Source: Paeniglutamicibacter terrestris
GTDB lineage: Bacteria; Actinomycetota; Actinomycetes; Actinomycetales; Micrococcaceae
Assembly: GCF_012271785.1 (NCBI RefSeq)
Contig: NZ_JAAWVT010000003.1
Location: forward strand, 124,001 to 188,000
Length of the DNA stretch: 64,000 bases
Direction: 5' to 3'
Below are positions 53,245 through 55,364 of this stretch, in pieces. Every line of letters begins with the position of its first letter. The first letter of the stretch is position 1. A program made the translations under genes and the position numbers. The notes under the pieces were generated by a model. It saw only the letters and a program-made list of their open reading frames with translations. It was not told the origin of the DNA and did no database searches.

Positions 53245-53320
53245 GGGGGTATGGCGCAGTTGGTAGCGCGTCTGCATGGCATGCAGAAGGTCAGGGGTTC
53301 GAATCCCCTTACCTCCACCA
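53245..53320 (+). tRNA. tRNA-Ala (anticodon GGC)
   Basis: The acceptor GGGGGTA pairs with TACCTCC (one G-T pair). The anticodon stem TCTGC/GCAGA encloses ATGGCAT with anticodon GGC. The T loop is TTCGAAT and the 3' CCA is encoded (53318-53320). Confidence 0.96.
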
Positions 53321-53374: not shown

Positions 53375-53566
53375 TCAGGGGGGCGCAATTGGGGCCGATA
53401 AGGGCTCTTGCTTAGTCCCATGAATCGCCGATAGGCCCTCTAAGAACGTGAAGCGGGCGTAGCTGGATACCAACGCGCCGAGATAGTCGGTTTGCGGATA
53501 TGTAGTTGCTTTCGAAATCTCGCGACTGGCATCGCTCTTGCCGATACATTTCCACAATGTTCGAAC

Positions 53567-53628
53567 CTTGTATGGAATGATACAAGCTTCAAACCTTGTG
53601 CAAGCTAGTACAAGTCTGTAGCCTTGTA
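53567..53628. promoter_or_regulatory. Array of CTTGTA palindromes before the SatD-like gene
   Basis: CTTGTAT (53567-53573) is inversely repeated as ATACAAG (53580-53586). CTTG-TG-CAAG follows at 53595-53604. TACAAG (53609-53614) is inversely repeated as CTTGTA (53623-53628), ending two bases before the ATG. The arrangement looks like a multi-dimer operator, and autoregulation by the HTH protein that follows is the obvious hypothesis. Confidence 0.75.
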
Positions 53629-53630
53629 TC

Positions 53631-54236
53631 ATGATTGTCATCACCATTGATCAACGCAAGTCTCGCTCGGGGCCGGACAAGGTTGAATCCTTACTGAGCC
53701 GGCTGGCTAGCGACTACGAAGCGACGAGAGGCTTTGAAAGAACCGCGGGTGATGAGATTCAAGGGGTATTCGAGGACGGAACCGTCGCCGTCATATTGGC
53801 CCTTGACGTTGCGCATACCGGGGAATGGAGTGTGGGAATCGGAGTCGGTTCCGTGCAAACTCCGATGCCTCGGGAAACCCGTGCAGGGAGGGGCCCAGCC
53901 TTCGAATATGCCCGCGATGCGGTCGAACGGGCAAAAAATACCAGTGCCTCCTTGGCGCTGTCTGGCCCCGGAGACGAAGCCGAACGGCTCGAGGCCGAAT
54001 TGCAAATTCTCGCGTTGGTCAATGCGCGGCGGACCGATTCGTCGGCCGAAGCTGGCATATTGGTATCCAAGGGGCTGACTCAGCGGCAAGTCGCCGCCAG
54101 CCTTGAGATCTCACAACAGGCCGTCTCGGCACGCCTAACCTCGGGCCTTTGGTACGAGGCCGCCAGGCTCGCGGACGTCGCGGGACGGGCATTGGACAGC
54201 TATTCGATGACGATGGACGAAGGGGAGCCTGCATGA
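53631..54236 (+). CDS. SatD-like protein with C-terminal HTH
   Basis: The 201-residue protein starts with a strand ending in Asp7 (MIVITIDQRKS). It has GDEIQGVF at residues 40-47, then VGIGVGSVQTP and RAGRGPAFEYARDAVERAK. These blocks, in this order, match the SatD family. They also recall a class III nucleotidyl cyclase core (Asp, Gly-Asp, IGI-G, aArl), though key cyclase residues are not all visible. A helix-turn-helix follows (LTQRQVAASLEISQQAVSARL, residues 148-168). The ATG directly abuts palindromic operators and has no Shine-Dalgarno. It overlaps the membrane gene by four bases. Biochemical function is unknown. Confidence 0.7.
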   Translation: MIVITIDQRKSRSGPDKVESLLSRLASDYEATRGFERTAGDEIQGVFEDGTVAVILALDVAHTGEWSVGIGVGSVQTPMPRETRAGRGPAFEYARDAVERAKNTSASLALSGPGDEAERLEAELQILALVNARRTDSSAEAGILVSKGLTQRQVAASLEISQQAVSARLTSGLWYEAARLADVAGRALDSYSMTMDEGEPA

Positions 54237-54784
54237 ACTGGATTGCCTGGGCACTGCTGATTCTTGTCATTCCACTAGGCGCCCCACGTTACTTTGCCGA
54301 TTCCGGCCTACGCTGGCCACTCAAACAGTCGATTACCAGCTACCTGCTTGTGTCCGTGCTTGCGCTGGCCGGGATCGCCGCGGCTATCGGTAGCCACCTT
54401 CCCGCTGCGGCTTCGATCCCGCACGAACTGGTGATCGTGGCTAGTGTTGCCGCGGCAACACTAGGTGGAGGTCCCGTCACCGAGACGGTCTTCAGGCTTG
54501 CGGCATTCAAAGGCAACCTAGGGGCGCCCAATGCTTCCGAGGAAGAGGGGCCGAGTCCGCTGCGTGGAGGAATGTGGATCGGGTTGCTGGAACGTGCTGC
54601 TATAGCTTCGACGCTCTGGGCCTCATGGCCCGAGGGGCTAGCGGTGGTTCTTGCGGTCAAGGGGCTCGGCCGATTCTCCGAGCTGAAGCAACATGCAGCC
54701 GCCGAGCAATTCATCCTGGGGACGTTCGTCAGTGTCTTGTGGGCTTGCGCAGCTGTCGGCGTCGGCAGAGTCATCGGTTTCTAG
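54233..54784 (+). CDS. Membrane protein paired with the SatD-like gene
   Basis: The 183-residue protein has five or so hydrophobic segments, with the last near AEQFILGTFVSVLWACAAVG. The stretch AVKGLGRFSELKQHAAAEQF resembles the end of DUF3307-type membrane proteins, which often lie beside satD genes; that similarity is from memory and is weak. The ATGA overlap with the SatD-like gene indicates coupled translation. The 229 bases after its stop hold no convincing gene. Confidence 0.65.
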   Translation: MNWIAWALLILVIPLGAPRYFADSGLRWPLKQSITSYLLVSVLALAGIAAAIGSHLPAAASIPHELVIVASVAAATLGGGPVTETVFRLAAFKGNLGAPNASEEEGPSPLRGGMWIGLLERAAIASTLWASWPEGLAVVLAVKGLGRFSELKQHAAAEQFILGTFVSVLWACAAVGVGRVIGF

Positions 54785-55000: not shown

Positions 55001-55006
55001 TAGAAT
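55001..55006 (+). promoter_or_regulatory. -10 box of a leaderless PhnA-like transcript
   Basis: TAGAAT ends 7 bases before the ATG at 55014. An earlier in-frame ATG (55005) lies within this box and is therefore unlikely to be the start. Confidence 0.5.
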
Positions 55007-55013
55007 GAGGCTT

Positions 55014-55364
55014 ATGAGTGACGTTCTGCCATCGTGCCCCCAGTGTTCAAGCCCCTATACATACGAAATGGGTGCCTTGCTGGTGTGCCCCGAGTGCGCC
55101 CATGAGTGGTCCGCTGAAGCGGATGTCGTGGAAGAGCCACAGGAAAAAGTCATCAAGGATTCGGTTGGTAAGGTCCTGAGCGACGGCGACACCGTCACTA
55201 TCGTGAAAGACCTGAAGGTCAAGGGACAAGCCCAGTCCATCAAGGTCGGCACCAAGGTACGCAATATCCGCCTGGTCAACGGCACCGACGGTCACGATAT
55301 CGACTGCAAGGTCGATGGGTTTGGTCCCATGCAGCTGAAGTCGTCGGTCGTCAAAAAGGTCTAA
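55014..55364 (+). CDS. PhnA/YjdM-family zinc ribbon protein
   Basis: The 116-residue product has a zinc ribbon with CPQC and CPEC pairs (near residues 8-11 and 25-28). The conserved PhnA domain follows ([41 protein letters not shown]). Despite its name this family is not shown to act in phosphonate breakdown, and its role is unknown. It is a single gene with its own promoter and terminator. Confidence 0.9.

Follow-up and report, generated by a model that had tools for sequence, protein, structure and literature searches.

A SatD-like protein with a predicted cyclase fold, its membrane partner and a phased operator array: a proposed self-regulated operon in Paeniglutamicibacter terrestris

The SatD family (PF16264) takes its name from the sat operon of Streptococcus mutans. 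We analysed a SatD-like gene and the membrane protein gene that follows it in a 64,000-nucleotide stretch of the Paeniglutamicibacter terrestris genome (contig NZ_JAAWVT010000003.1, positions 124,001 to 188,000; hereafter the window, whose own coordinates are used throughout). The host genome comprises 4.34 Mb in 31 contigs. The satD open reading frame (ORF; 53631..54236, + strand, 201 amino acids) was assigned from family and profile searches, and shares with the SatD family an N-terminal domain with a GDE motif followed by a region resembling a helix-turn-helix (HTH). The ORF of the membrane partner (54233..54784, + strand, 183 amino acids) overlaps it by 4 bases, and was assigned from approximately five hydrophobic segments, an all-helical structure model and gene adjacency. 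Both ORFs, the protein motifs, the HTH, the palindromes upstream and the overlapping membrane gene, as described in an initial annotation made from the window alone, were all found in place.

The closest arrangements to this locus are visible in public annotation, for example in Halorientalis, where a SatD gene is directly followed by a gene for a membrane protein annotated as DUF3307. The likeness lies in the gene order and in a common C-terminal membrane domain; in contrast, the window partner does not match DUF3307, and what it has in common is this C-terminal domain. DUF3307 has also been assigned to a phage ORF, according to the available text of that report (PMC8504454). For a Fusobacterium SatD protein, the available text of a further report assigns acid resistance from family membership (PMC10326533). 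Class III adenylyl and guanylyl cyclases such as Rv1264, OaPAC and Ma1120 differ from SatD, whose predicted cyclase-fold domain is fused to a short HTH. The DUF2652 proteins resemble SatD in being cyclase-like, in having no assigned function and in occurring in Actinobacteria, but constitute a different family, single-domain but for one protein, and the available main text of that study does not mention SatD (PMC4886424). In a search of open-licence papers, none was found to account for SatD beside a membrane partner or for a cyclase fold in SatD. The view of the initial annotation that the pair is undescribed thus stands with respect to its explanation, but not to the arrangement itself, given the annotated SatD genes beside DUF3307 proteins.

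A scan of a sequence collection by alignment returned at least 542 encoded relatives, the best 80 of which were kept as named loci. On the evidence of profile matches, the wider family of the window protein is homologous to SatD: 61 of 72 relatives match the Pfam SatD model at E <= 0.01 (best 5e-9), and five distant relatives found by the family's own profile score 43.8-65.8 bits compared with a SatD cut-off of 29. Of the 80 named loci, 71 entered the alignment for the SatD model, together with the window protein.

We propose, with a rough probability of 0.6, that the locus is a self-regulated SatD/membrane-protein operon in which a cyclase-fold nucleotide switch is coupled to the partner. SatD dimers would bind three tandem palindromes, with CTTGTA as the half-site, and the bound palindromes would span both the -35 and the -10 regions as well as the beginning of a leaderless promoter, so that the operon is repressed by its own product. 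The class III cyclase fold with its two metal-site aspartates would bind a nucleoside triphosphate and metal and act as the switch, to which the membrane partner would be functionally tied as either signal source or output. Repression would then be relieved, and more partner made, when the state of the membrane or the supply of nucleotide changes. Autoregulation is the firmest of these steps; that control takes the form of repression, and that switch and partner are coupled, is put forward conditionally.

Immediately upstream of satD we find three 20-bp palindromic units (no strand assigned), the starts of which are exactly 28 bp apart. Unit 1 (TACAAGTCTGTAGCCTTGTA, 53609..53628) covers the -10 region and ends 2 bases before the ATG, with half-sites in register at -21 and -8, while unit 2 (TACAAGCTTCAAACCTTGTG, 53581..53600) covers the -35 region in the conserved register -49 and -36. 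The unit farthest upstream, unit 3 (CACAATGTTCGAACCTTGTA, 53553..53572), is an imperfect palindrome, and some of the relatives likewise have half-sites here, at -77 and -64. The occurrence of the pattern CTTGTR-N8-TACAAG at this locus goes beyond chance: without mismatch it is confined to the array, at two sites, with no other copy in the 4.34-Mb genome. Allowing up to two mismatches, the genome contains 68 and 88 matches by strand compared with 198 and 211 for a reversed control pattern, and hence there is no wider genomic enrichment of the operator pattern.

The register of the half-sites was analysed in 73 of the 80 upstream stretches (those with the start read as ATG and at least 150 bases upstream). 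Of the half-sites, 118 of the 160 forward and 93 of the 139 reverse ones lie in one of 28 possible phases when counted from the start codon, whereas shuffled sequences contain approximately 37 forward and 30 reverse matches, all phases together. Place and register of the palindromes are therefore kept in relatives, which bears out their proposed conservation. The palindromes had also been described as nested; while the palindromes themselves stand, the relatives favour a tandem TACAAG-N8-CTTGTA as the unit, and the window half-sites alternate evenly and fit both readings. Micrococcaceae-type relatives carry TTGT/ACAA and Rhodococcus-type relatives TTGA/TCAA, with most copies in an array changing together, and a further group of relatives carries GGTTGA/TCAACC in the same register.

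The presumed promoter lies within this array. A putative -35 element (TTGTGC, 53596..53601, + strand) occupies the conserved positions -35 to -30, and a putative -10 element (TAGCCT, of the form TANNNT) is located at 53619..53624 (+ strand). When two sets of upstream stretches were counted, the -10 bases T-12, A-11 and T-7 were kept in 28, 29 and 31 of 32 stretches, and in 30, 37 and 38 of 38, respectively; Rhodococcus-type relatives have TTGA[CT] at the presumed -35. The half-sites at -36 and -8 overlap the TTG at -35 and the TANNNT at -12. With a TANNNT at -12, the transcript start would fall at the ATG, suggesting that satD may be transcribed from a leaderless promoter.

The HTH of SatD (residues 136-171, 54036..54143, + strand) is identified by the structure model and by weak matches to HTH profiles, those of sigma-70 region 4 and MarR among them. 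It is predicted to consist of helices 136-146, 151-158 and 162-171, the last being the probable recognition helix (54114-54143, + strand). A residue-base comparison was made for 145 non-redundant proteins; the base after TTG could be assigned in 108 of them, and 82 were used for the base before it. Proteins with Gln162 have T after TTG in 48 of 48 cases, and A in this position goes with a residue other than Gln162 in 53 of 53. Similarly, C precedes TTG in the presence of Arg168, and G in its absence, in 80 of the 82. The self-regulated pair suggested by the initial annotation gains support because the HTH residues associate with the operator bases, in addition to the conserved operator register. 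The association matches what direct binding of SatD to these palindromes would predict, short of proof: it is strong row by row but comprises few independent changes, and is thin when viewed on the tree.

Two further observations concern the recognition helix. A Nesterenkonia relative (L098) has Ala168 together with ACAAC. In a clade of four relatives that possess the partner (L177, L189, L190 and L191), no TTGT or TTGA sites are present in register. By eye, the upstream DNA of this clade instead shows repeats that contain GCAT, and the recognition helix reads QSSVSRRL.

The N-terminal domain of SatD (residues 1-112, 53631..53966, + strand) is predicted to adopt a class III cyclase fold, based on the structure model, the fold match and residue invariance. 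In the model, Asp7 (53649-53651, + strand) is found inside the first strand (2-8) and Gly40-Asp41-Glu42 (53748-53756, + strand) at the turn joining strands 33-37 and 42-47, while VGIGVG falls within strand 66-72 and PAFEYARDA starts helix 89-101. A structure search with this model retrieved the class III cyclase fold, with matches including cyclases, GGDEF proteins and GTP cyclohydrolase III. The kinship that had been proposed from motif order is thus matched by the predicted fold, although the Pfam Guanylate_cyc model gave no match to the window SatD at E <= 1. In class III cyclases, the metal ligands are provided by the first strand and by a strand-strand hairpin. Asp7 and Asp41 occupy these places, as judged by their position in the model and by the alignment of TAGDE with KTVGDE of a cyclase. 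Both aspartates, whose conservation had been anticipated, are invariant in 80 of the 80 named relatives, as are R37, E42, R84, R95 and K102. The domain may bind nucleotide and metal.

These same invariant polar residues and fold matches, together with the loss of Asp7 in most relatives without partner (see below), would also suit an active nucleotidyl cyclase or other nucleotide-converting enzyme, the product of which is a signal that drives the partner, for instance by opening or closing it, while DNA binding only sets the operon dose. However, the transition-state Asn and Arg of class III enzymes have no counterparts by eye when GPAFEYARDA is set against GPTVNLAARL of a cyclase from the same genome (sequences only). 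Nor did the PADLOC-DB 2.0.0 defence profiles match any of four proteins (two from the window and two from distant relatives) at E <= 0.1. We consider such an enzyme unlikely, and favour the nucleotide switch.

The link between satD and the membrane gene is close to constant: a profile search places the partner on the same strand and adjacent to satD in 79 of the 80 named loci, and in the sole exception (L148) the locus ends with its contig. The proposed co-occurrence of the two genes is thereby established for these loci. Hydropathy indicates approximately five hydrophobic segments in the partner, and the predicted structure is all-helical (pLDDT 86.6), with no clear relative among solved structures by structure comparison and no sequence match to them. 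Both the partner profile and the alignment for its model draw on 67 of the 80 loci as well as on the window partner. Conservation is concentrated in the C-terminal half, where invariant columns define a domain (LRGG..IG.LER ... K.L.R..E ... AE.F..GT..S; 54554..54772, + strand) common to the partners of distant SatD proteins. At L056, L057 and L058 the protein next to SatD is matched by the window-family profile (domain E 7.8e-11, 2.7e-12 and 1.3e-6), as is the one at L225, L227 and L229 from Halorientalis, Sphingomonas and Fusobacterium vincentii (1.1e-14, 3.8e-12 and 1.6e-10); the neighbour in Natronosalvus (L226) gave no significant match (E 9.3).

The window partner matches no Pfam family, DUF3307 (PF11750) included, at E <= 1, and the partners of four other relatives do not match DUF3307 at E <= 5; none was found in the L056 partner either. 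In the L057 partner, the DUF3307 model spans residues 8-117 of 251, outside the shared C-terminal domain, and the Halorientalis partner is annotated as DUF3307. This suggests that the constant pair is SatD plus the unnamed C-terminal domain, with DUF3307 as an optional extension.

In Tsukamurella (L228:3716-5430), annotated SPFH-domain and NfeD genes are located just downstream of the pair in convergent orientation. Genes that we take to be similar SPFH/NfeD-like genes lie downstream on the opposite strand in Rhodococcus-type loci (for example L097 and L108), and presumably also in L088 and L103, in the same orientation as the pair and about 4 kb further downstream. Such neighbours hint at membrane homeostasis. 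On a Sphingomonas plasmid (L227:280-3567), the pair is found near genes annotated as a glycosyl hydrolase 108 family protein and a 3TM-type holin.

SatD matches, of either the window type or a second type near 40% identity, were found in 142 of 149 genomes of the family. All 15 of 15 genomes of the genus have a partner match, which is weak in one case. P. sulfureus provides the closest named relative, at 82% protein identity, and the genera among the best 80 include Paeniglutamicibacter, Glutamicibacter, Kocuria, Citricoccus, Nesterenkonia, Rhodococcus, Gordonia and Actinopolymorpha. In a sample of 296 genomes of the phylum, 62 have a SatD-profile match at E <= 0.001, ten of which, including the own genome, are strong (E <= 1e-39); most weak matches cover the HTH alone. 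Relatives of the pair occur in both bacteria and archaea.

Relatives that lack the partner offer a view on the role of the metal site. Asp7 is kept in 124 of 124 non-redundant sequences with a partner, and lost in 17 of 21 that have none in the stretch examined, in all but one case to Asn. Sixteen of 18 partnerless loci inspected by eye have one palindrome (CAAC/GTTG) instead of an array. This hints at a metal site in the service of the partner, one which the HTH can do without. The persistence of HTH and operator in partnerless loci, most of them without Asp7, also fits a different model, in which the cyclase-like domain is only a dimerisation scaffold and the partner binds SatD and frees it from DNA by membrane sequestration, no nucleotide being involved. 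The 4-base overlap of the two genes, present in 54 of the 80 named loci, is likewise in keeping with this. However, such a scaffold leaves the retention of Asp7 with every partner and of Asp41 in all 80 named relatives unexplained, and we regard it as improbable, ranking it after the enzyme.

The partnerless sequences that keep Asp7 include L148, which its contig truncates, and L046, a genuine exception within the stretch examined. The latter has CTTGAT/ATCAAG sites upstream by eye and no partner within 1.5 kb; its next gene presumably encodes a dihydroxy-acid dehydratase. A second, degenerate SatD relative is present in the own genome (L071, G000:C7:17654-18211), with Lys at position 7, no GDE and no membrane partner in the stretch examined.

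Several results weigh against the self-regulated nucleotide switch. The window SatD scores 21 bits (E 2.9e-4) with the Pfam SatD model, below the curated 29. By sequence-profile comparison the match to cyclases is weak, with a probability of 29.6% over 29 columns, compared with 1.1% for GGDEF and 0.2% for the membrane partner as negative control. The -35 element of the window is poor, and a consensus promoter scan of the window found no promoter here. On a tree of 88 of the 145 non-redundant sequences, which includes all 21 without partner, the sequences that have lost Asp7 form one clade, corresponding to one or two events, and this clade includes L163 and L169, which have no partner yet keep Asp7. 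With respect to the residue-base association, seven TTGT sequences lack Gln162 (five of them typed 2 to 1), L103 and L187 are exceptions to the Arg168 rule, and 37 of the 145 sequences are untypable at the position following TTG. The tree shows 7 changes of the half-site base (T or A), compared with only 2 of Gln162. Five independent pairs lie on well-supported branches, in which residue 162 follows the base approximately once, is unchanged approximately four times and never goes in the opposite direction. The base before TTG and Arg168 provide one independent tree pair, and sign tests for both associations are not significant. That the palindromes are the target of another regulator, with the SatD HTH binding elsewhere, would agree with the frequent change of the half-site base while residue 162 stays, but is very improbable given that the exact array is unique in the genome, travels with satD across genera and has bases that track residues 162 and 168 row by row.

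Beyond the self-regulated operon, we tentatively suggest a wider role, which we think doubtful as it stands: SatD and its partner could be a self-contained signalling module of Bacteria and Archaea, in which a nucleotide signal, either produced or sensed by the cyclase-fold protein, is destined for a dedicated membrane effector carrying the unnamed C-terminal domain. In Actinomycetota, this protein would in addition control the amount of the module by binding the operator array of 28-bp period. If true, the module would form its own, new class among nucleotide signalling systems, as opposed to a variant of cAMP or c-di-GMP signalling. Should the cyclase-like domain bind or convert nucleotide, SatD pairs would represent an unrecognised branch of nucleotide signalling. 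A named but unexplained family in any case gains a predicted fold, a probable mode of regulation and a conserved partner domain, making its function testable, and the operator and HTH supply a natural series in which DNA sites are paired with recognition residues.

After the pair, the window contains a 119-amino acid ORF (55005-55364) with a cysteine-rich start, which resembles a PhnA-type zinc-ribbon protein. Upstream, a tRNA-Ala(GGC) gene (53245-53320) ends 310 bases before satD, and the same tRNA gene is found upstream of satD in 4 of 26 relatives scanned (L072, L073, L076 and L077).
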